Assembly (NCBI GenBank): GCA_964036665.1
Contig: OZ038527.1
Location: 3,596,001 to 3,660,000, forward strand
Reading direction: 5' to 3'
DNA length: 64,000 nt
From: Gordius sp. MW1
Taxonomy: Eukaryota > Nematomorpha > Gordioida > Gordea > Gordiidae
Below are positions 11,586 through 50,312 of the stretch, in pieces. Position 1 is the first letter of the stretch. The number at the start of each line of letters is the position of its first letter. The notes beneath the pieces were generated by a model that ran no database searches, was not told where the DNA came from, and was given only the letters and a program-made list of their open reading frames with translations. Both the position numbers and the translations under genes were made by a program.

Positions 11586-12290
11586 TGACTATTATGTTTG
11601 TTCCTGTTACTACCATTGCTATTATGACTTTTTGGCCGTCCGTTGGGTGCTGACCAATGAAAAAAATGACCATTGGCCAAAATGTGAATCCAAGTTTATT
11701 TTTTTCGTTTTTTTTTGATTATTATGATTGTTCCTGTTACTACCATTGCTACCTGTTACTACCATTGCTATTATGACTTTTTGGCCGTCCGTTGGCTGCT
11801 GACCAATGAAAAAAATGACCATTGGCCAAAATGTGAATCCAAGTTTATTTTTTCGTTTTTTTTTCTCGCCTATTATGATTGTTCCTGTTACTACCAATGT
11901 TATTATGACTTTTTGGTCGTCCGTTGATTGCTGACCGATGGAAAAAAATGACCATTGGCCAAAATGTTAATCCAAGTTTATTTTTTCGTTTTTTTTCGAC
12001 TATTATGATTGTTCCTGTTACTACCAATGCTATTATGACTTTTTGGCCGTCCGTTGGGTGCTGAACGATGGAAAAAATGACCATTGGCCAAAATGTGAAT
12101 CCAAGTTTATTTTTTCGTTTTTTTTCGACTATTATGATTGTCCTGTTACTACCATTGATAATAAGACTTTTTGGCCGTCCGTTGATTGCTGACCGATGGA
12201 AAAAAATGACCATTGGCCAAAATGTGAATCCAAGTTTATTTTTTCGACTATTATGAATTTATAACCACCTCTACCCTGTCCTGGCTGCTG
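11585..12290 (+). repeat. Minisatellite, unit about 127 bp, about five copies
   Basis: Each unit carries ATTATGATTGTTCCTGTTAC, TTTTTGGCCGTCCGTTGG, GCTGACCAATGAAAAAAATG, then ACCATTGGCCAAAATGTGAA and a T-rich spacer. CATTGG/CCAATG occurs in both orientations within a unit, giving inverted CCAAT motifs. Units differ by small indels and substitutions. ORFs here are repeat artefacts. Confidence 0.88.
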
Positions 12291-26919: not shown

Positions 26920-28550
26920 ATGTTTATTGGTCAGCAGCCAACGGACGGCCAAAAAGGCTTATTATCAATGGTAGGAACAAGAACAATCATTTGTGGCTTA
27001 TAATAAAAATTTTTGAAAATAAAATTTAAATATATAAAAATGCGTTAGATATTAAAAAATATGACTTTTAAAAATAAGATGTAATAATAATTAGATTTAT
27101 TAATAAGATATCTAAAAATAAAATAGTATAGATATTCAAAAATGATATAAGTCATTTTTTTAATTGGTCAGCAGCCAGGACAGGGTAGAGGTGGTTATAA
27201 ATTCATAATAGTCAAAAAAACGAAAAAATAATTTTCGAATCACATTTTGGCCAATGGTCATTTTTTTCATTGGTCAGCAGCCAGGACACGGTAAAAGTGG
27301 ATATAAATTTATAAGAGTCAAAACAAAAAACAAAAAAAAAATTTTCGAATCACATTTTGGCCAATGGTCATTTTTTTTAATTGGTCAGTTCCAACAGATG
27401 GTCTATAAATCAGTGTTAGCGAAAAAAAACGAAAAAAAAAATTTCGATTCACATTTTGGCCAATGGTCAATTTTTTCATTGGTCAGCACCCAACGGACGG
27501 CCAAAACGTCTTATTATCAATGGTAGTAACAGGAACAATCATAATAGTCGAAAAAAAACGAAAAAATAAACTTGGATTCACATTTTGGCCAATGGTCAAT
27601 TTTTTCATTGGTCAGCAGCCAACGGACGGCCAAAACGTCTTATTATCAATGGTAGTAACAGGAACAATCATAATAGTCGAAAAAAACGAAAAAATAAACT
27701 TGGATTCACATTTTGGCCAATGGTCAATTTTTTCATTGGTCAGCAGCCAACGGACGGCCAAAACGTCTTATTATCAATGGTAGTAACAGGAACAATCATA
27801 ATAGTCGGAAAAAAAACGAAAAAATAAACTTGGATTCACATTTTGGCCAATGGTCATTTTTTTCATTGGTCAGCACCCAACGGACGGCCAAAAAGTCATA
27901 ATAGCAATGGTAGTAACAGGGACAATCATAAGAGTTAAAAAAAACTCCGGGATTCTAACCCAAAAACTAGTTAAATTGCATAGCAAATAAAAGTAAACAA
28001 CTTTTATTTCTGTTTATTATATAACATTGGTCAGCAGCCAACGGACGGCCAAAAAGTCATAATAGCAATGGTAGAAACAGGAACAATCATAATAGTCGAA
28101 AAAAAACGAAAAAAATAATTTCGATTCACATTTTGGCCAATGGTCATTTTTTTCATTGGTCAGCAGCCAGCGGACGGCCAAAAATTCTTATTATCAATGA
28201 TAGTAACAAGAACAAACAGGGACAATCATAAGAGTCAAAAAAAACTCCGGGATTCTAACCCAAAAACTAGTTAAATTGCATAGCAATTAAAAGTAAACAA
28301 CTTTTATTTATGTTTATTATATAACATTGGTCAGCAGCCAGCGGACGGCCAAAAAGTCATAATAACAATGGTAGAAACAGGAACAATCATAATAGTCAAA
28401 AAAAACGAAAAAATAATTTCGATTCACATTTTGGCCAATGGTCATTTTTTTCATTGGTCAGCAGCCAGCGGACGGCCAAAAATTCTTATTATCAATGATA
28501 GTAACAAGAACAATCATAAAAGTCAAAAAAAACTCCGGGATTCTAACCCC
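26920..28550 (-). repeat. Minisatellite array, the same unit of about 127 bp in reverse orientation
   Basis: About ten units carry TTTTTCATTGGTCAGCAGCC and AACGGACGGCCAAAA. Four consecutive units (27430-27900) are nearly identical, so expansion or homogenisation is recent. The first units (26930-27400) are more diverged. It is the reverse complement of the 11585-12290 array. Confidence 0.88.
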
Positions 28551-34504: not shown

Positions 34505-35859
34505 CAGCAGGCCTTGATGGTTTCCGCCCCGTTTATTTACAAGACCTGATTAACCTTTAAAACGTGAGCGCTGCATTTTTACTCAACTCTATAACGTCCC
34601 TATGCAATTTAATTGTCAACGGTAATATTCCTACCGAAATAATCCCTATATTGTTCGGCGCTAAACTCATCGTTATCAAAAAACCTGATAATTCGGTAAC
34701 ACCCATTGCTATTGGCAGTGTTTTCCGACGTATTATATCAAAACACATTTGTAAGACAATCAAATCCAGTTTAAGCGACAAGTTAATTCCTCAACAATTA
34801 GGGTTTGAGGTTAAAGGCGGCTGTGAGGCTGCCAGTCACGCTGGGCGGATAAGTCTTCAACAAATTCCCTCCAATCACTGCATGGTTAAATTGGACTTTG
34901 CCAATACATTCAATAATATTCGCCGAGAAACGATAATTAATTCCTTCATTGATGAGTTCCCAAAGTTTGCAAATTACATCAATTTAAGTTACGGTTGCAT
35001 ATCAAAACTAAAGTTTGGGGACTTTTTAATTGAATCGGCAGAAGGTATTCAACAGGGTGACCCTCTAGGTCCACCTTTGTTTTGTCTAGGGATCAAAAAT
35101 TTAACCGAATCTCTCTCAAACCAATGCTCTTTATCATTAAACGTCTGGTACCTAGACGATGCCATCCTATGCGGTCCTCCGGAAGAAATCTCTAAGGCCA
35201 TTCTTTTAATCCGAGATTATGAAGGTATCCTAAACCTGAAATTAAATATCTCTAAATGCGAGATATATCAGTGCCCGGATACAGACTTATTTCCTATTTT
35301 TAAGCCTTTTTTAAAAGTTGAAATGAAGACTTTAACTCATCTAGGCTCACCAATAGGTGGGCAAATCGCCTTAATAGAGTTTTTACATAGGCACCTATCA
35401 ACTCTTTCCTCGAAGACGGAAATTCTTAATACCCTCCCAAAACATCATGCGTTTTATATAATCAAAAATTATTTTAATATCTCAAAAATTCAACACTGCT
35501 TCCGGTCATCATCAGCTTTTTTATTACCCGAGATTTTAAAAAGCTACGATAGCTTCATGAAAAAGACGCTAGAAGCCATCCTTAATATCAAATTCAGCAC
35601 TTCTTCGTGGCTCCAAGCCTCATTACCTACCAAAGCTGGCGGCTTAGGCATACGCCCAGCAACCTCAATTTCTTTAGCAGCTTTTATCTCTTCGTATAAA
35701 TCCGCCCAAGGTTTGATCGACCGAATAATCACAACAAGTGAGAATCCTTCGTTTGTGCAAGCTCTAGATATCTGGTCCGCCAACGTCAATCCAGGGACCC
35801 CTTTCCCCATAACCTCAAGACAAAAGGATTGGGATGAAATGTGTAAATCTTCCCGATGA
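34505..35859 (+). pseudogene. Reverse transcriptase remnant with a 431-codon open frame (YLDD type)
   Basis: The frame 34564-35859 contains GCEAASHAGR, VKLDFANTFNNIRRE (motif A), SAEGIQQGDPLGPPLFCL (motif B), LNVWYLDDAIL (motif C, YLDD), LNISKCEIY and LPTKAGGLGIRPA. These are conserved in a family of metazoan non-LTR-like RT ORFs. Upstream, in the same frame, YAAGLDGFRPVYLQDLINL (from about 34499) is family sequence but is cut by TAA at 34558-34560. No endonuclease or element ends are seen. It looks like a 5'-truncated, mostly preserved copy. Exact clade not assigned. Confidence 0.75.
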
Positions 35860-39742: not shown

Positions 39743-40754
39743 CTTCGTATATAAACAAAATTGAGGGGGCCATAGACTTGGCCTGAAAAACAACACATGT
39801 ATCTCATATATACGGCATGTTAATCTTTAGAACTCTTTTTAAAAGCGTGAAGATCCTATTGTGAATTTTGGAAGTGGAAGCATTTTAGTCCAGTTGACTT
39901 TTATGATGTATTAATGAATGACTTTAAAATAATGCTAGGAGAAGAAATCGTCAGAAAACATCGTCCTATTGTATAAACCGCATAAAGAAGAAAGGTTTAT
40001 AAACTTTAAAATAGATATTAAATTGGTAAGGGATTCCTTGACGAACAATAAATACCATCATGAAACCTTTACATTCTTGCGTGCCATGTAGTTTGAACGT
40101 AAAGTAGACGATGGTTGAGAGCTAACTGAGGACAAAACAAAGAGGCCATTCAAGTTCTGGGACAAATCAAAGGAGGCAAAGCTTGAATAGGGAAGTTATG
40201 GTGGTGAAATAAAACGGTAGGGATTTTATCCGATGATTTTTAATCAGAGGGTAGCAAAAATCTAAAGAAGTCGGAGGATTATCAGAATATATGGAGGCAT
40301 TCTTCTTCTTGTGACAATTAAGTATTTATAGGATTACCTACCAAATACCAATTATTCAAAAAATAATTGGCTTAATAATCGCTCCAGATTTTGTTAATTA
40401 AAACCATTATGACTCTGCTTGTTAGTCATATAAGTTTCCAGGCCGAACCTGTGCCAAATTTTCTGATCACAAATTTAATTTTATTAAATTTAAAATTCAA
40501 ATCTGTAACCAATGTGTATAATAAATTGGGATATAGGCTAAATCACGAAAACGCAGAATCCCGAAAATACGATAATGCTATTGATAGGATTTTCAAATTT
40601 TCATATGTTTCTTAGTTTTAAAGTTTTATCACATCCCCGATAATATTACGTCATTTCAATCCATTAAATAAAGAGCTAGATTTGAGTGCAACTTTTAAAA
40701 TTTACTTATGTATGAATTAATTTGTAAAATTTATACAATAAAACATTTAGTACA

Positions 40755-41016
40755 CTAATGTTTAAAATTATTACAAGCAAACATAAATATAGTCTTAATT
40801 GCAGATATTAAATTTTTCAATATCTACAAACATATTAATGCAGTATTGATCATTGCTCTATGTTAATTTGTCTTAATATTTTATAAGACATTTGATTCAA
40901 TAATATATTCAAGGTAGTATCTATCTCAAAATTTTTAAAAGGGCTCTAACAAACATAAATTTAGACTTGTAAATTTTTCAATATCTACAAACATTTTAAT
41001 GCAATCTTAATAGAGT
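40755..41016. repeat. Diverged tandem duplication
   Basis: AATTTTTCAATATCTACAAA with flanking CAAACATAAAT occurs at about 40780-40845 and 40950-41005. Confidence 0.6.
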
Positions 41017-41040
41017 TTATTGATGTGTTGTCCAAATTTT

Positions 41041-41693
41041 CTAACAAAAAGGGAGTTCCATTCTCCAGATAGTGACAGTCTAGGGGCAATATTGTTTCAT
41101 CAATAGTTCTTGGAATTTTTGGTCTATTTTTATGCAATGTTCTCCTTATTGTTTGTTTCATTGACTTTAAAGGTGGATATTGACATTATATCCTCCACTA
41201 CTTCACGTCTTTGGTAAAGTACATTATCTTATACCTAATAGGATTAATTGATTCCCTGATTTTAAATATGTTAGGATTACCGATATTGATTCTAAAGGAT
41301 TATTAGTTGTGGCATCCTTTAAGTTATACTTTGTCACTAAATATTGATACTCATCAGTTTCAGGTTCATGGTTGTAATTATTTCTTAATTTAGCCATATA
41401 ATTACAATATATGAAATTGCAAGGGCATTTTGAATTTCTGCATCTATAATAGGTTGTAATCTGATTAGTTTTGTCAACGACATATAGATAATCATTGAGC
41501 ATCAAGATTGTTTTTGCTTTTGGGATGGCAAAAATATTACATCTAAATTAATTGAGGGGTTATACTAATTAAAACTAAACAAATTTTCTTTGTGAATTTT
41601 CAGCTGGTGCAAGGGTTGGTTGATCATCACCCTGTGTAGGGGTCTTCTCATTAGCATCTAGTAAGCAACTCTCAGTACTACCTCCACTTGAAC
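41041..41693 (-). pseudogene. FLYWCH zinc-finger gene fragment, probably MULE-derived
   Basis: The frame 41505-41224 and its upstream extension encode LMLNDYLYVVDKTNQITTYY, then RCRNSKCPCNFIYC and NYNHEPETDEYQY. These match a FLYWCH-type zinc finger (C-x5-C, later H-x-H-like NHEP). Downstream, after frameshifts, SMKQTIRRTLHKNRPKIPR and PLDCHYLENGTPFLL match the segment that follows FLYWCH in Mutator-like transposon proteins. A possible preceding exon, 41693-about 41581, encodes an acidic Ser/Gly-rich stretch (GSSGGSTESCLLDANEKTP). The frameshifts suggest a decayed element; a domesticated FLYWCH gene with extra introns is the alternative. Confidence 0.55.
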
Positions 41694-42286
41694 CTAAAAT
41701 TTTTTACATTTTTTAAGAATAATTTATAGAATGTTGTTACTTTGTTGGCCCATTATAATTGTAAAGATATTTTCAACAAGTTTGGTATTTGTTTCAGTGA
41801 AAATATTTAGTTTTTCATTTGACGCTAAAATTTTATGAATAAAGCTATATTATGTTACTTTGAATACAATTTTTAGAATGCTCAGTTGTGATTGTGACTA
41901 TGCAATTATTATTCTTCAGTATAGCCTTTCTTGGGCAATGACTTATAGTACATTGCCTGCACTTGTAATACACCTGTCCAAGTTCTCCCTATCTAATTTT
42001 GATATAATCAAAGTCTTTAAGGGTCAAAATCATGTTTTTTATATTGGATTTATAAAACTCTCAAAATAATTTTAATATATTTAAATAACTAAGTTTACTT
42101 ATATTTTCTTTAATATCTTGATTTGTTCTCTCAACCAAAAATTTGGAAAAAGCTTGATTATAGGATTGGATATTTTTTACAATATGTAATTGGCGCCAAG
42201 TGTAGCATTGAAATTAGGGATTATGCGCTTTCGGGATTGTGCCTACCTAGGAACTAAATAAACTTATAGACAACGTGCAGGCGAAG

Positions 42287-42540
42287 GTATGTATGTATGT
42301 ATGTATGTATGTATGTATGTATGTATGTATGTATGTATGTATGTATGTATGTATGTATGTATGTATGTATGTATGTATGTATGTATGTATGTATGTATGT
42401 ATGTATGTATGTATGTATGTATGTATGTATGTATGTATGTATGTATGTATGTATGTATGTATGTATGTATGTATGTATGTATGTATGTATGTATGTATGT
42501 ATGTATGTATGTATGTATGTATGTATGTATGTATGTATGA
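42287..42540. repeat. (TATG)n microsatellite, about 63 units, the 3' tail of the LINE
   Basis: A 254-bp tract of perfect GTAT/ATGT repeats starts directly at the target-site duplication and ends where the LINE 3'UTR begins. It reads as (CATA)n in LINE orientation. Position and purity fit a simple-repeat LINE tail that has expanded, not an independent microsatellite. Confidence 0.9.
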
Positions 42541-42745
42541 TTGCCGCGAAGACGCCCAAGAGCTTAGTAAGTGCAATCTAAGGTTGGGCTCCTTCTCACG
42601 CCAAATGGCGCATAAGGCCACGTTGGTGACAACGTGTGTAATGTACCTGTAACAAATTTGATTAATATGCAGTGTAATTATGGCATGTTAATATGTAATA
42701 CCCAACTGCATGAGAATTAAAGAGAACTTTGTAGGTGAGCATTTA

Positions 42746-44282
42746 TTACGAATGGGATATACGCGCCCTTGTAGTTGAAAGACTAGATAGTTGGTTCTTT
42801 GAGAACTCTATCCATAATTTCCTATCCTGCATTATTGTCAACATTGAATCCCAGTCCTGACCTAATAGTTGAATTTCTCGAAAAGTCTTGTGAAGCCAGC
42901 TGCCGTTGCATTTCAAGCCCCTTAGTGAAGGAGGATACCAGAACAGTGAAGACATGCAATAGTTTGTACCTTTTCTTCGGACCTGATGTGCTAAAAAATT
43001 CCACTTCCTTGTTAACAAAATATTTTTAACTGGAGGGATCTTACAACGCATCCACAGATTTTCGTTTGTTATCGTTGCTGGGTAAAAAATTCGACATACA
43101 ATTCGTAGCATTTTGTTGATGTTAACTTGGAGTTTTTTTATGTCGGGGGCACGCAACGACCAAGATTCACACCCATAAAGAAGTGTTGGTAGAATCATAA
43201 CTTTAAAGATCCTCAGGCGGGTGTTAAGGACCAGTTGGCGCGAGCGCCAGATTGCCGAACAAGAATAAAATTTTACAAGGGTTCGTCGGAGCTTTAATTC
43301 CATGTCTCCGTCGGCATAAGTATCCTCTGTTAGTTCTACTCCCAGATATCTTACTCTATTGGATGCTTGTATTGGGTTATTTTCAATAATCAACTCCTCT
43401 TCTGATTGATTATTTTTTACGAGCATAGAGCACTTACCAGCATTTATAAACAACCCTGCTTGTTTCGCCTGATTAGTAAATCTATCAACCATCAATTGAG
43501 CCTGTGATACAGAGGAAGCGATAAGGCATATATCATCCGCGAAAAGTAGTGAAGATATGTTGATACCGTTTACATTGATGCCTTCATAGCCAAGTATGGA
43601 CCGCTTTACAATCAAGTCCATCGCTATTATAAAAAGAAGAGGGGACAATGGACAGCCCTGTCTAACTCCCACTGTCACCGGAATCGGGTCTGATTTGTGT
43701 TGTAGATGCGTTACTATTACTTTCATATCTTGGTAGATCAGGAAGATCATAAGGATCAATTTCTTGGGAATTCCCAATAAACATAGCGACTCCCATATGT
43801 AAAGATGGGAAAGGAAGTCGAACGCTTTCGAAATGTCTAGGAAGACCAAAACCAAAGGGTCCCCACTGGAGCGCGACACATCTATCATATTCCTCAAAGT
43901 GATGATGTGTTCCGTTGTGGTCCGGCATTTCCTGAATCCTGCTTGATTATGTTTGAGGATGCCCTCAACCTCGTTATATATTCTGTCGTAGATTATTTTT
44001 ATGAATATTTTGGACTCAAGATTTATAATTGTGATTCCCCTATTGTTAGGATCAGATGGGTCTCCTTTCTTAAAAAGTTTGATAAGGCGCCCTCGTGACC
44101 AGGATTCTGGTGCCTCTTCTTTCGCCCAAATTTTACAAAAGAGTAGATGTAGCATAGTACCAGAGACGTATGGATCCGCGCTCAGTGCCTCTGAGGTGAG
44201 TCCAATCAGGTCAGCCGCTTTATGGGGTTTAAGTAATTTAATTGCTCTTTTGATTTCTAAAACGATGGTGGGTCAGTTGATA
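42746..44282 (-). CDS. LINE reverse transcriptase, C-terminal part of polyprotein
   Basis: The frame is open from about 44282 (IVLEIKRAIKLLKPHKAADL, typical of the region before RT motif 1), overlapping the endonuclease frame, although its first ATG is at 44155. RT motifs: LIKLFKKGDPSDPNNRGIT, LDISKAFDF (first catalytic Asp), VRQGCPLSPLLF, LLFADDICLIA (the FADD pair) and YLGVEL. The thumb-like C-terminal part has LPTLLYGCESWSL. No internal stop interrupts 469 codons, and the catalytic aspartates are present. The TAA is followed by about 200 bp of 3'UTR and the TATG tail. Confidence 0.87.
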
Positions 44283-45726
44283 CTGGGAGTGCCGGAGGTC
44301 CTTTAAAATTTACTATAAATTCTCTGAAAATGTCCAATACCGGCACTTTGAATTGGGGTGACAAGATTGATCTAAAGTATAGCTCCCATGTTTTGGTTTG
44401 CACCAAGGAATCATTAGACTCACTAACTGTTTTTATGTTGTAGTATGCCCTTTTTGTAAACGAGCTACGATTCAGGCTTTTTATTATGTTGAATAATTGG
44501 TGAGTATTATTTGAGCGGGCCGCGGCCTCTGCCTCGCTGGTTCTCAAGTTAATATAAGCCATTTTATCTTGTCTTATGCTTGACTTGATACGTTTGCTGA
44601 GGGCCGACAGGCATGAGGATTTGTAGGGGAAATTTTTATCATCGAAAAAAAGTTGATTTCTTGTCCTCAGTAGCCCCAGCGTTTGTTGTGAGAACCAAGT
44701 TTTTGTCTTCATTCGATTCTGGCCCTTGGGGGCATTAGCAAATATAGCTGATATTTTCAGACTCAACTCATTAATGGGTAAAGCGGAAAAATTTGTATTT
44801 CTAAATTTGGAGCGTAGATATTCCCTGAATTCGATTGTACCTGATAAACCTTGTGGCCTTATCGTTGGATTATTGCGCAATGATGGTATTCGTAAGGTGG
44901 CTGACTTCACTACCAGCTCAGCAGCTATAGCGCTGTGATCCGCCTTTTCAATTATTGTATCTTGTATAACACGAAAGTTTTTGACAGTTTTATAATGCCG
45001 TGATCTGCACAGCAGGTGATCTATTTGGCTTATTTGGGGACTATTCCTTCTTCTAAATGTAGCCAACTGATCTGTCGGAAGCTCGGAAAAAGTAGAGGCA
45101 ATACGCCACTTCAACCCTCTACACCATTTTTTTAGAAAAATCCCGTTTCTATTGTTTGTGCCTAAAGAGTTAGGGCCTACCAAGCCAGGGTCATCACGGT
45201 CAGTGTACTTAACACAAGAGTTGAAGTCGCCAATGATAACAGGCAATGATCTGCGCTTTAAAGTCTTGATCTTTCCTGAAAGTAGAGTGAAGAAGTCTTT
45301 TAATATTTGAAGTTTATATGACGATGTGGGGACATAGACGTTTATCACTGAGAGAGTACGTGACCCAAATGTGACATTGAGGATGAGGATTCTGTCGTTA
45401 ACCCAATCAATGCTCGAGATTGAGAGACGTTTATTTATAATCGTGGACACTCCTGTGGTTGGGTTCTCGCCGAAGCCCGTATGGTATATTGTGTAGTCTG
45501 AGTAGGCACTATCGACTCTGGAGAGGGGGATCCGAGTTTGTTGTAAACACAGAACATCCAATTTATATTTCCTAGCGAATGTTATCATACATTGTTGATA
45601 TCCTTTCACCATTAAGGTATTAACGTTTAATGATGCGATTTTTATCCGCATGATTGTTTGTATTTTGTCCAGGATATTCTTATGAATGCTCTTCCAATGA
45701 TATGATTCGGGGGAGGGATTTAGCAT
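44257..45726 (-). CDS. LINE endonuclease (APE/EEP) domain and linker, N-terminal part of polyprotein
   Basis: The 489-aa frame starts at ATG 45726. It holds EEP nuclease blocks in order: IASLNVNTL (about 30), LDVLCLQQTR (56-65), VINVYVPTSSYK, VIIGDFNSCV, SQIDHLLC and KADHSAI. Family members cut target DNA for first-strand priming. The catalytic Glu of the usual LQETR is Gln here (Q63), which would be expected to cripple cutting. The frame ends at TAG 44257 in the middle of the linker that should lead into the RT, so this is a frameshift and not a natural C-terminus. Confidence 0.85.
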   Translation of the reverse strand: MLNPSPESYHWKSIHKNILDKIQTIMRIKIASLNVNTLMVKGYQQCMITFARKYKLDVLCLQQTRIPLSRVDSAYSDYTIYHTGFGENPTTGVSTIINKRLSISSIDWVNDRILILNVTFGSRTLSVINVYVPTSSYKLQILKDFFTLLSGKIKTLKRRSLPVIIGDFNSCVKYTDRDDPGLVGPNSLGTNNRNGIFLKKWCRGLKWRIASTFSELPTDQLATFRRRNSPQISQIDHLLCRSRHYKTVKNFRVIQDTIIEKADHSAIAAELVVKSATLRIPSLRNNPTIRPQGLSGTIEFREYLRSKFRNTNFSALPINELSLKISAIFANAPKGQNRMKTKTWFSQQTLGLLRTRNQLFFDDKNFPYKSSCLSALSKRIKSSIRQDKMAYINLRTSEAEAAARSNNTHQLFNIIKSLNRSSFTKRAYYNIKTVSESNDSLVQTKTWELYFRSILSPQFKVPVLDIFREFIVNFKGPPALPVSTDPPSF

Positions 45727-45910
45727 TTGTTTAACTATGAATAATGAAAATTAGAGATCTAGTATCGAAGTCAAAAAGCGCGCGCGTGCTATTTATCCTT
45801 TTATCGATGCTTATAAGAGTGGAAATATAAGCTAAAATAGTGTAATATACGAGTAAAAGCAGACGAAATTTCCTAACTTAGGGGAAAAGCAGACGATCCA
45901 GGCGAAGGTA

Positions 45911-45965
45911 AGGGACGTAAAAGTTTAAAGCTTGTAACTAATTGTCAGTATCTGTCAGTAGTTTA
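45911..45965 (+). promoter_or_regulatory. Probable remaining KHDC4 5'UTR / core promoter next to the LINE
   Basis: These 55 bases separate the LINE's flanking duplication from the KHDC4 ATG. No TATA box is seen. The sequence reads like a short 5'UTR (GTAAGGGACG... GTCAGTAGTTTA before ATGG). Core promoter and transcription start must lie here, or inside the LINE, or upstream of it with the LINE now transcribed or spliced out. This is inferred from position only. Confidence 0.4.
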
Positions 45966-48900
45966 ATGGCCAACGTCGATAAAGAAAAATTTAGTGCAGC
46001 CGCACTAGCGGCAACTCGAATTAATGCCATCTTGATGGCTAAAGGAAAATCCAATAATTTAATTACAAATGTAACATAATATTAATTTGTAAAATTAGTT
46101 ATTTTAGGAACAAAATTTTGACGAAACTTTTATTAATCATAATAATGATGAGTTATCTTATCATATTGATATTGAGTTTATAGATCCAATTATTAAAAAG
46201 ATTATTACTCAAAACGAAATAATATTTGAAGTTTGTCTGTCTATCTATTTTACTTATTATAATATTAATAGATTGAAAAAAATAATTCTGTTACAATTAA
46301 ATTACAGAAGCAAAATACACTTGAAAGGTAAATTCATAATATTTTGATAATTGCTAACATATGAATAATTTAGTGATGAAAAAGATTTTTCATATATTAG
46401 TCAAATTTTTGTAGTTTCACGAAACAAAGATAAACTTATCAGTATTGTAAATTTGTTCAATACTTATAAAATTTTAGATGCTGTAAAAAAACTAAATTCA
46501 ATCATAACATATATTACTAATCAAATTCAACATGGAAGTCTTTCACAAAATAAAGTCAGAAGTCATCTGCCAAACCCACAAGTCTTACACTTTCAGATAA
46601 GCAATTTGGGTACAATGGGGAAACAAATCAGTTATCAATATCCTTTGGTAAAATTTTTAAAAATTATAAATCGTTTTTGCCACTAATTCAAGATATTTTC
46701 TTAGACTTTTTTAAATTAGGTTGAAATTATTATTTTCTCTCATGTTTATAACACAAGTTTGATATGAGATTCTTTTTTTGCTAAATCTATATATTTTCCT
46801 TAAATTTAGGGTCACTATATACAGGAAAAAGTTTTTGTTGGGTTGGACCAAGTAAATGACTCCACATTCCCCCTCAAGGATAATTTACAAGGACCAAATG
46901 TAATACCACATCAAAAAACATTATCAAATATTTATCAATGTGTGTGCTCATTGATTAACTAACCTGAACATACAATTGTTTTACTAGTATCAATTCAAGT
47001 TTTTTGTTTTAATAAGATTGGTTATTTATCAATATATATTTGAACAATCAAACAATCCAAACAAAATAAAACAATCGAACAAAAGGATAGAACTAAAATA
47101 CAAAACAAATTGATAGTCTCGTTTGGAATAATATAAATACAATATTCATATATACATGGGCGTAGCCAGGTTTTGGATGAGGGGGGGGGGGGGTGAAACG
47201 TTCAAAAGTTCAATTAGGGGTTGGGGGGGGGCATAACATAAAAGTTTTAAGGCTTTTTGCATTGAAAAAAATTTGTTTTTGCCATTTAAAGGGGGGGCGG
47301 CTGCCCCCCCTTGGCTACGCCCATGCATATATATATATAACATAAATCACAAATATTAACAATAAATAGTTTAATGTTAATTTTGTTAATGTTAGAGTTG
47401 TTATTTGGACCATATTAGAAAGCAAACAGGTGCAACTATATCAATACGTGGCAAAGGCTCTGGTTTTCTGGAACCCGCTTCAGGCAAAGAAGCCTGGGAA
47501 CCTTTGCACATTCATATTATGTAATTTTCTGCATAAAGATTTAAGCCTAAAATAATTTTTGCTATAGGTCTAATACCAAAGAGGGTGTGGAAGCAGCAAA
47601 AAAATTGGCACAAAATCTGATAGATACAGTAATTTATTGCACGTATATGTATCATATAAAATATATTTATAAGAGACTTGGGGGACTTATAGTTTTTTAT
47701 TATTGAACATAAAGGCAAATATTGATTGATGTTTGTTTTATAATTTGTTTAGTCGTCAATTACATTTTAATTTTCCACGTTTAGATGGTTGTTGATTTAA
47801 CCCATTAAAGATGTTATATAAGAGACTTAAGGAACCTATACTTTTTAATTATTTAATATTAAAGCATAAATATTGATTGATATTTGTTTTTATAAATTAA
47901 TTTAGTCTGCAATTACATTTTAATTTTCCTTATTTAGATAATTATTGATTTAACCCATTAGAACTAAGCATCAAATTTATCATAGGACACCATATTTAGT
48001 CTAAAAACTTGCATACTTTAAGACCATACAATATTATCAGATTTATTTTTAGTCTTAATATTATACATTATAAACTAATTTTTTTAGTTTGCTAATTAAT
48101 TGGTTTCCTTTTTTTAGAACATGGGACTTTAAAAAAATAGTGTCCAGTCTTAATGGATTATTGATTAAACCAACTTAAACTATTTGTAATGTAGTTGTAA
48201 TTTTGCATTAGAATAGATTTGTATGTTATTGCTGTTAATTTAAATGTTTGTATTGTTTTAAATCACTAGTCTAAATGTTAAAACTAAATTATTTAAAAAC
48301 GTTTTTGGTCCTAAGGTTCACACAAAATACACAATTCACCAACAAACTCCACCACCTTATGCCATGCCAGCTCAACCAACTAATTTTACCAACCCATATA
48401 TGATGAATATGAATCAAATGCCTTTCTTCAACTTCCCCAATATGTTACCACCCTTTCCTCCTATGGCTAATATGTTCTCCATTCCACCCCCACCACCACC
48501 CAATTCAGGTTATACTTATTTAAATTTTGTTTAAAAAATATACGAAATTATTTAATAAAAACTCTTAACACCATTTTAATAATACAACTTTACCAAATGT
48601 TAATATACTTACATAGGATCAATAAAAGCAAATTAAATTTTTACATATGCACCTTATTTGATGTTTTAAAATGAAAAAATCTATATTATAATATTCATAC
48701 CATGAGTTTAATAAATACATATAATATTATGTTTGTATCTAAAACTCGAGAATGTTGCAATTATTTGAACGTGTCTTAATTGGTTTTTTGTTATTTTTAA
48801 AACTAAATATATGGATTATTGACTTATCATTTTTGTACAACTTCATCCAACATCGTATATATTTCTATAATCCATTTTTAGTTAATAATTTTACTCTCAG

Positions 48901-50312
48901 ACCTGAGGCGGACATGGGTAGAGTGATTAATAACAGCAACGACCTTCCATCAAAATCAAAGTTTAGAGCTGTGCCATTTGCCTACGACAATACAAGTAAC
49001 CCATCCTCCCAAATTCCAATAGCTTATCCACTCCCTAATACAAGTTATTCCACCATGTACCCATTGCCTGTTCAAATTAAATCACCCAATACCCATGGTA
49101 ACTATATTTTAATTTATTTTTTCTTGATTTTCGTTATTAGTTTTATTGATTAAAATTATCATGTTTATATTACTGTAATGATAAAGATAAATACGATTAT
49201 GGAACTGATTCACATGTTAATGAATCTAAAAAAGAGATTGATACAGAAGATAAGTTTTGGGGAACTTCTAAGAAAATTGAGGCTGAAAATGAAGAGGAAC
49301 ACTTTGCATTAGAAGTATATTTAATTTATTTTTTTGAACCTTTGGTTTAATAATAATTAAACCTAACCTTTTTTCACTTGTTATCATATTTTATTTTATC
49401 AATTTAGAAAAAAAGTTCAGAAAATACAACACTACCAAACTCTCATCATGTTTCATCTATACAGAGCAACCACAAGTTTTTTTGCATTAATTGACTTTCA
49501 TCATCATCAATTATTTTTACAGTAGGCCCAAGGTTGGTGATGACTTTAATTTTAAAATTCCCCAATCAATTCCTTCCTTATCCAAAACGACGAAACGCAA
49601 ACGAGTCAATGTCGTTGAGAAAGGTATATGCCACTGATAGACTAAAAAATATAATAGAATGACATGCGCGTAGTCAAAATTGGAATTAGAAGGGGGCAAT
49701 AATGGTTTAGGGGGGGGGCAAAGCGATCATTTTTGGAAATTTTAGCCATTAATAAATTTTAACAATTTGGATTTAGAGGGGGGCAGCCGCCCCTCCCTTC
49801 CCCCTCTCTTGGCTACGCCAATTTAGATTGGCGAACAGTTAAATTCTGCATTAAAATTTATAGAGTAACTCAGGCCCCTATTTTGGATAAGGCCCTATAA
49901 ATATGCGCATTTGTGCGGTGAAATTGTAAAAGTTAGGAAAAAAAGAATAAAATCAGTACATAATGGATTATTTTTTGAACTATTCAACGAAATGAATGGC
50001 ATTAAGTTTGTTGCAATATTCTTTAAACATGTGGCCAGCATTTTTACTTGATACTTACCAGCTGTTTCTTAGTCTATTGTACTATTCCATTTATATGTAC
50101 ACTAAATGTTTCTCATAATTTTTAGACGTTAAGGCTTCGAAAACAGAAAGCGTCGAAAAGTCTCAACCACCAGTACAACCTTTATTTCCCGGTCTGACTG
50201 GTAAATAATACTTTGAAGTTCGATGATTTTTATAACCTTTACATGTTGTGTTTACATTGATAATCGCTTATTTATAGATTATGGGTCTGAAAGTGATTCA
50301 AATGGAGAATAA
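45966..50312 (+). CDS. KHDC4: KH domain-containing protein 4 (KHDC4/BLOM7) homologue, 14 exons, complete
   Basis: Exons are 45966-46070, 46108-46230, 46272-46327, 46374-46647, 46810-46899, 47396-47520, 47568-47628, 48316-48508, 48882-49097, 49187-49314, 49408-49475, 49523-49623, 50126-50200 and 50278-50312. Total coding length is 1650 nt (549 aa) with phase kept at all 13 junctions. KHDC4 is a nuclear RNA-binding protein that helps splice-site selection with the Prp19/U5 machinery (family knowledge). Recognisable blocks are the N-terminal [18 protein letters not shown], the KH-like core [49 protein letters not shown] and [19 protein letters not shown] Pro/Asn/Met-rich middle, a basic KTTKRKR stretch (likely NLS) and an acidic C-terminus [14 protein letters not shown] follow. 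The vertebrate protein has a similar GL-Y-DSSDEE end. Many introns are only about 35-45 nt. An AATAAA lies 49 nt past the stop (50361). The 5' side abuts a LINE insertion. Confidence 0.92.
47155..47325. repeat. MITE family A copy in KHDC4 intron 5
   Basis: Starts CATGGGCGTAGCCAGG and ends TTGGCTACGCCCATG; both ends are near perfect, 70 bp from the next exon. Confidence 0.88.
47667..47963. repeat. Tandem duplication of about 148 bp in KHDC4 intron 7
   Basis: TATAAGAGACTTGGGGGACT at 47668 and TATAAGAGACTTAAGGAACC at 47817 start two copies that both end TTGATTTAACCCATTA. They differ at many sites, so the duplication is old. Confidence 0.75.
49663..49820. repeat. MITE family A copy in KHDC4 intron 12
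   Basis: Starts CATGCGCGTAGTC and ends TTGGCTACGCCA, just 40 bp after the exon 12 donor. Confidence 0.82.

Follow-up and report, generated by a model that had tools for sequence, protein, structure and literature searches.

Long interspersed nuclear elements (LINEs) that encode an apurinic/apyrimidinic (AP) endonuclease, including those of the RTE type with microsatellite tails, are described in the accessible part of PMC2887409 as having target-site duplications of 10 and 20 bp and frequent frameshifts, and the RTE elements of Lepidoptera as seeding microsatellites via their tails. In canine merle, as presented in the available portion of PMC7349775, a reversed short interspersed nuclear element (SINE) with a duplication lies at the splice acceptor of PMEL, and the length of its tail controls splicing. 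Here we describe a LINE that lies directly upstream of the gene KHDC4 in the nematomorph Gordius sp. MW1, within the 64,000 nucleotides from 3,596,001 to 3,660,000 of contig OZ038527.1 (assembly GCA_964036665.1; hereafter the window), and whose duplicated target reads as a candidate 5' splice site.

A LINE insertion adjoining the KHDC4 start codon

On the plus strand of the window, exact copies of the 12-bp sequence CAGGCGAAGGTA occur at only two places, one on each flank of the LINE (Table 1). The open reading frames (ORFs) of the element are on the minus strand and KHDC4 is on the plus strand, so that the LINE is antisense to the gene and turns its 5' end toward it. Both the perfect duplication and this orientation had been claimed in an earlier note on this DNA and are borne out here; the proximity to the start codon reported there also holds, with the distance revised from 56 to 55 bp as measured from the right duplication (67 bp from the LINE body). 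The locus is a genuine LINE insertion by target priming, which left a target-site duplication and put the element antisense to KHDC4 and beside its ATG. A joined-flank search of the genome yielded no empty site among the best 40 of 169 candidates scored, its matches being the two halves of the window and otherwise only copies of the transposon to the left. No description of a LINE at KHDC4 appeared among the top-ranked hits of our literature searches.

The name that the earlier note gave to the neighboring gene is confirmed by its KH domain, assembled from exon pieces joined by eye, which matches human KIAA0907 (2yqr, E 5.5e-19) as well as PF22675 (E 4.4e-17); the start codon at 45966 is likewise a by-eye reading. 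Inside the gene, at 47142-47338, TGGGCGTAGCCA / TGGCTACGCCCA form the core of a short inverted repeat that has runs of G, and a similar end recurs at 49802-49822.

Table 1. Features of the KHDC4 upstream region, in window positions.
Feature	Positions	Strand	Remarks
Older terminal inverted repeat (TIR) DNA transposon, perhaps MULE-like	40528..42255		right end 22 bp short of the LINE duplication
Left copy of the 12-bp target-site duplication CAGGCGAAGGTA	42278..42289	+	resembles a donor (AAG|GTA), extended by the tail to AAG|GTATGT at 42284-42292
LINE 3' tail	42287..42539	-	(GTAT)63 when read on the plus strand, 100% perfect; (TACA)n on the strand of the element
LINE body, 5'-truncated	42540..45898	-	from sibling comparison
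LINE ORF part 2, reverse transcriptase	42746..44155	-	ORF list and profile match
LINE ORF part 1, AP-type endonuclease region	44257..45726	-	ORF list and profile match
Right copy of the 12-bp target-site duplication CAGGCGAAGGTA	45899..45910	+	donor-like AAG|GTAAGG at 45905-45913
Candidate 5'-leader intron, 41 nt	45908..45948	+	GTAAGG ... TAACTAAT ... TTGTCAG; alternative ends at later AGs, 45958 or 45961
Candidate leader intron as it would now stand, 3662 nt, with the entire LINE inside	42287..45948	+	proposed from the duplication and donor sites
First coding exon of KHDC4, starting at its ATG	45966..46067	+	34 codons listed; exon end placed by eye

The duplicated candidate splice donor

The 5' splice site of animals has the consensus MAG|GTRAGT. 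Read on the gene strand, the duplication is CAGGCGAAG|GTA, and the left and right copies (AAG|GTATGT and AAG|GTAAGG) each agree with the consensus at 8 of 9 positions. Sites scoring at least 8/9 number 16 on the plus strand of the window, the two duplication copies included; estimated from the other 14, the chance of such a core in a given 12-mer is p ~0.0015 and that of a site within 60 nt is p ~0.013. Beyond the right copy, a branch-like site TAACTAAT precedes a candidate acceptor, TTGTCAG, that ends 17 nt ahead of the ATG. The resulting intron of 41 nt would be normal for this genome, since six of the 11 introns of CCT7 (L051) are 35-42 nt long. That gene was read exon by exon to a joined protein that aligns without gaps to T-complex protein 1 subunit eta over residues 2-524, giving introns of 41, 38, 42, 150, 35, 38, 38, 132, 173, 152 and 209 nt; the five longer ones span 132-209 nt, the 41-nt intron directly follows the ATG codon, and the 11 donors score 5-8/9. 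The right donor at KHDC4 is native sequence and carries the main weight of the splice evidence.

In the likeliest reading, which we consider an even call, the LINE struck the first exon-intron border of KHDC4, duplicated the donor and is now removed as a 3.66-kb leader intron. Target-primed reverse transcription of LINE RNA would have taken place at CAGGCGAAG|GTA, where a short non-coding exon 1 met the 41-nt leader intron, and the antisense, 5'-truncated insertion would have copied the 5' splice site in its 12-bp duplication. The upstream donor, with its last three bases supplied by the TACA tail, would then have stayed with the old exon 1 and the promoter side, and the downstream donor beside the original branch point and acceptor. 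Were the upstream donor joined to that acceptor, the LINE would be spliced out entirely and the mature mRNA left unchanged, and the end signals of the LINE would not act on KHDC4 because of its antisense orientation. Use of the donor, the transcription start site and the absence of a driving role for the LINE are what we infer from these sequence features.

The earlier note had argued that an insertion so close to the ATG must carry, replace or displace the core promoter. This does not follow, because the duplicated target has the consensus of a 5' splice site and the LINE may lie where an exon meets a 5'-leader intron and be spliced out with that intron: a LINE 55 bp before the start codon of a conserved gene need not take over the promoter when the duplicated target includes a splice donor. 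Should that donor be in use, a retrotransposon was neutralised at insertion and an unstable tetranucleotide array came to lie beside a splice site.

Several observations weigh against this reading. Between the duplication of the older transposon and that of the LINE there are 13 bp, TATAGACAACGTG, so exon 1 would have to be tiny or start within the transposon. The left donor adds little because the tail alone provides an antisense score of 6-8/9 at every tailed junction (45/45), with 8 reached in the window and in L060. Among sibling duplications, that of L009 holds an 8/9 donor without a known exon, and eight others score 6 or less. The acceptor side is pyrimidine-poor and three AGs compete there; the donor test was post hoc and made in comparison with a single gene, CCT7; and an AG close to the ATG may instead be an acceptor for trans-splicing. 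A coding first exon upstream of the donor was also considered and, within the DNA up to the older transposon, rejected, as the 22 native bases there contain no ATG and stop codons lie nearby (by eye).

The alternative that survives best is that KHDC4 starts in the native 55-67 bp, or is trans-spliced with a spliced leader (SL) to an AG there, the LINE being neutral and the donor match coincidental. So short a leader is enough in many animals, the AGs ending at 45948, 45958 and 45961 are possible acceptors, and donor-like matches do occur elsewhere, at the 14 other plus-strand sites and in the L009 duplication. We nevertheless judge this account unlikely, if a serious contender, as few 12-bp targets would contain such a donor match (p ~0.0015), which is here accompanied by a well-spaced AG and a branch-like site.

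The LINE family, its tails and its targets

A sibling search in the same genome (211.8 Mb, 12 contigs) gave 44 matches from the best 40 of 460 candidates scored, among them nine near-full-length siblings (L002-L010) that are 98-99% identical. Comparison with these contradicts the description of the window LINE as full-length. The three longest, fetched more widely as L023-L025, have in common 877-911 bp of leader beyond the 5' end of the window copy in pairwise comparison; one of the three, L002, has an exact 16-bp duplication ~1.2 kb past that end, and L004, with a 14-bp duplication of its own, ends between it and the longest leaders. The window copy therefore shows ordinary 5' truncation, with ~0.9 kb of leader missing; its reading frame is broken into the two open pieces of Table 1.

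The promoter of a LINE is expected in its 5' leader. This truncation bears on a second alternative, the one raised in the earlier note, in which KHDC4 transcription now begins within the 5' region of the LINE, read in antisense, and the right donor and 41-nt intron could still be used. The 5' end does face the gene, with TATAAG strings at 45812 and 45826, and the native upstream sequence is nearly gone owing to the second transposon; but the leader is what this copy lacks, and AT-rich DNA is commonly rich in TATA-like strings. The observations lend no positive support to a LINE-driven KHDC4, and we hold a start within the element to be clearly unlikely.

The window copy carries 21 private substitutions in 3291 compared positions (0.64%), and eight siblings carry 11-22, L003 with its disrupted 3' end having been left out. 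Exact duplications of 13-20 bp accompany nine siblings (L002, L004, L005, L007-L011 and L067); none that convinced was found in the remaining siblings checked. A second subfamily, L012-L020, is ~91% identical to the window copy, and identity among its nine copies is 99.94-100% where they align. Eight of these nine retain a single 971-codon open frame; counting single open frames of 971 or 988 codons, the proportion is 8/9 in L012-L020 and 1/10 in L001-L010. The L012-L020 subfamily is thus much younger than that of the window copy, and its near-identity and open frames suggest that it is probably active now.

The reverse transcriptase of the window LINE matches PF00078 (E 4.5e-29), and the relatives of solved structure found for it are of the LINE-1 and R2 types, the best being LINE-1 ORF2p (E 4e-31). 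The endonuclease part matches PF03372 with an E of 2.8e-5 at 24.4 bits, just under the 24.5-bit cut-off. The element and its siblings show a reverse transcriptase domain, duplications of variable length, a 3' tail and common 5' truncation, the traits of a LINE, that is, of a retrotransposon lacking long terminal repeats (non-LTR), and family copies with an open frame join endonuclease and reverse transcriptase in one ORF as RTE elements do. Placement in the RTE clade is provisional. RTE elements typically have a very short 3' untranslated region (UTR) with simple repeats; that of the window LINE measures 206 nt ahead of its simple-repeat tail. Elsewhere in the window, at 34564-35859, another ORF, 431 codons long, encodes a reverse transcriptase (PF00078, E 1.2e-16).

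The tail forms a 253-bp array whose first bases overlap the left duplication, and it directly abuts the left donor. We surveyed 54 family 3' ends, the window included, counting a tail where at least two TACA units stood at the expected place. Tails were present at 48 of the 54 ends: 44 measured 9-37 nt, and four were long (at least 249 nt), namely those of the window (249 nt), L082 (at least 393), L085 (at least 729) and L091 (at least 353). In L003, L058, L059 and L063 two full TACA units nowhere follow each other, and L086 and L087, in which the run occurs only farther out, were left uncounted. The weakest alternative, that the LINE damages KHDC4 by making it a poorly expressed or null allele, which may be polymorphic, or through a long tail that perturbs splicing as in merle, may draw on the unusual tail of the window copy and on the control of splicing by tail length in the available account of merle (PMC7349775), but is highly improbable for a copy whose private substitutions, within the sibling range, mark it as not new and as having persisted by a conserved gene.

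Three other copies have 3' ends close to gene starts, all recognised, and their distances counted, by eye: L067 (C1:2046976-2048437) lies 31 nt ahead of the start codon of HYPK, L014 (C7:12653047) 58 nt ahead of that of a beta-1,4-galactosyltransferase-like (B4GALT-like) gene, in which only the downstream exons and not the start exon have Pfam matches, and L017 (C3:24114456) 81 nt ahead of that of CERT1. L063, ~200 nt from a start (LRAT-like, PF04970 below cut-off), was left out of the count. The three stand among 50 readable distinct 3' flanks, which are the 54 ends minus L082, L085 and L091, whose tails reach the limit of the fetched piece, and the duplicate L087; 0.24 would be expected at an assumed 20,000 genes (P ~0.002; 0.006 at 30,000 genes). 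Apart from the by-eye recognition, a promoter bias is weakened by L017, which apparently lies within a sister LINE's repeat tail and without which P is 0.024. The flanks of the sister family include no gene start (0/20, from 41 matches listed), and the family 3' end has some 340 first-look candidates in the genome. A bias of the family toward gene starts is suggestive and unproven, and the family offers a testable case of insertion near them. A broader proposal, that the family prefers the open DNA of gene starts, that antisense (GTAT)n donor-like arrays tend to turn its promoter-proximal antisense insertions into leader introns and that tail length, from 9 to more than 700 nt among copies, tunes host-gene splicing, seems to us very doubtful.

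With respect to target sequence, AGGCGAAGGTAAG (AGGCGAAGGTA plus AG) has only three occurrences in the genome, which rules it out as a common target motif of the LINE. At the 3' junction of L060 (C6:3183340), AGGCGAAGGTA stands beside the tail in the same orientation as in the KHDC4 target, and no duplication was found at the L060 5' end; the sibling duplications are otherwise unlike each other (by eye). A donor-like target preference is neither proved nor excluded by L060 and L009.

Upstream DNA and comparison with known systems

The older transposon upstream of the LINE has imperfectly inverted ends and a possible 9-bp duplication (40519-40527 / 42256-42264, 7/9 matching). Its matches start at ~40527 among the best 40 of 4121 candidates scored, and its right end is GGAACC or GGAACT in nine of ten other copies read. 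A FLYWCH-like piece, with a profile score below cut-off, is the reason for calling it perhaps MULE-like. As two transposons have struck one and the same leader region, KHDC4 has been cut off twice from its former upstream DNA; a TATA-like AATAAACTTATA just upstream of the LINE could be a core promoter (by eye).

The window also contains tandem arrays at 11752-12246 and 27420-27945, built of ~128-129 bp units on opposite strands; similar units were seen by eye in the flank of L010. Elsewhere in the assembly, TTAGGG repeats stand at four of the five contig ends fetched. COX1 on contig 12 gives a sensible reading when AGA is decoded as Ser and TGA as Trp, and COX1-like stretches in the nuclear contigs C1, C3, C4, C5 and C8, one nearly whole and that of C4 repeated, look like mitochondrial insertions.

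Among described systems, the RTE-type and other AP-endonuclease LINEs of PMC2887409, so far as its accessible text extends, share with the window LINE a reverse transcriptase, for which the window LINE has a candidate AP endonuclease as partner, a simple-repeat 3' end, duplications and frameshifts; the 3'UTR is 206 nt here and 14 bp in one element there, and tail runs in the present family reach at least 729 nt. Canine merle, in the available portion of PMC7349775, provides the parallel of a reversed non-LTR element at an exon-intron border, with a duplication that carries a splice site and an unstable tail. In merle the site is an acceptor and the protein is altered, whereas at KHDC4 the candidate site is a donor in an untranslated leader. 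Introners and other transposon-derived introns, as portrayed in the accessible part of PMC9860276, are transposons that are spliced out with a 5' splice site drawn from the duplication, as may be the case here, where the duplication has the donor consensus. Introner families do so repeatedly, whereas KHDC4 presents one insertion at what appears to be a pre-existing border.

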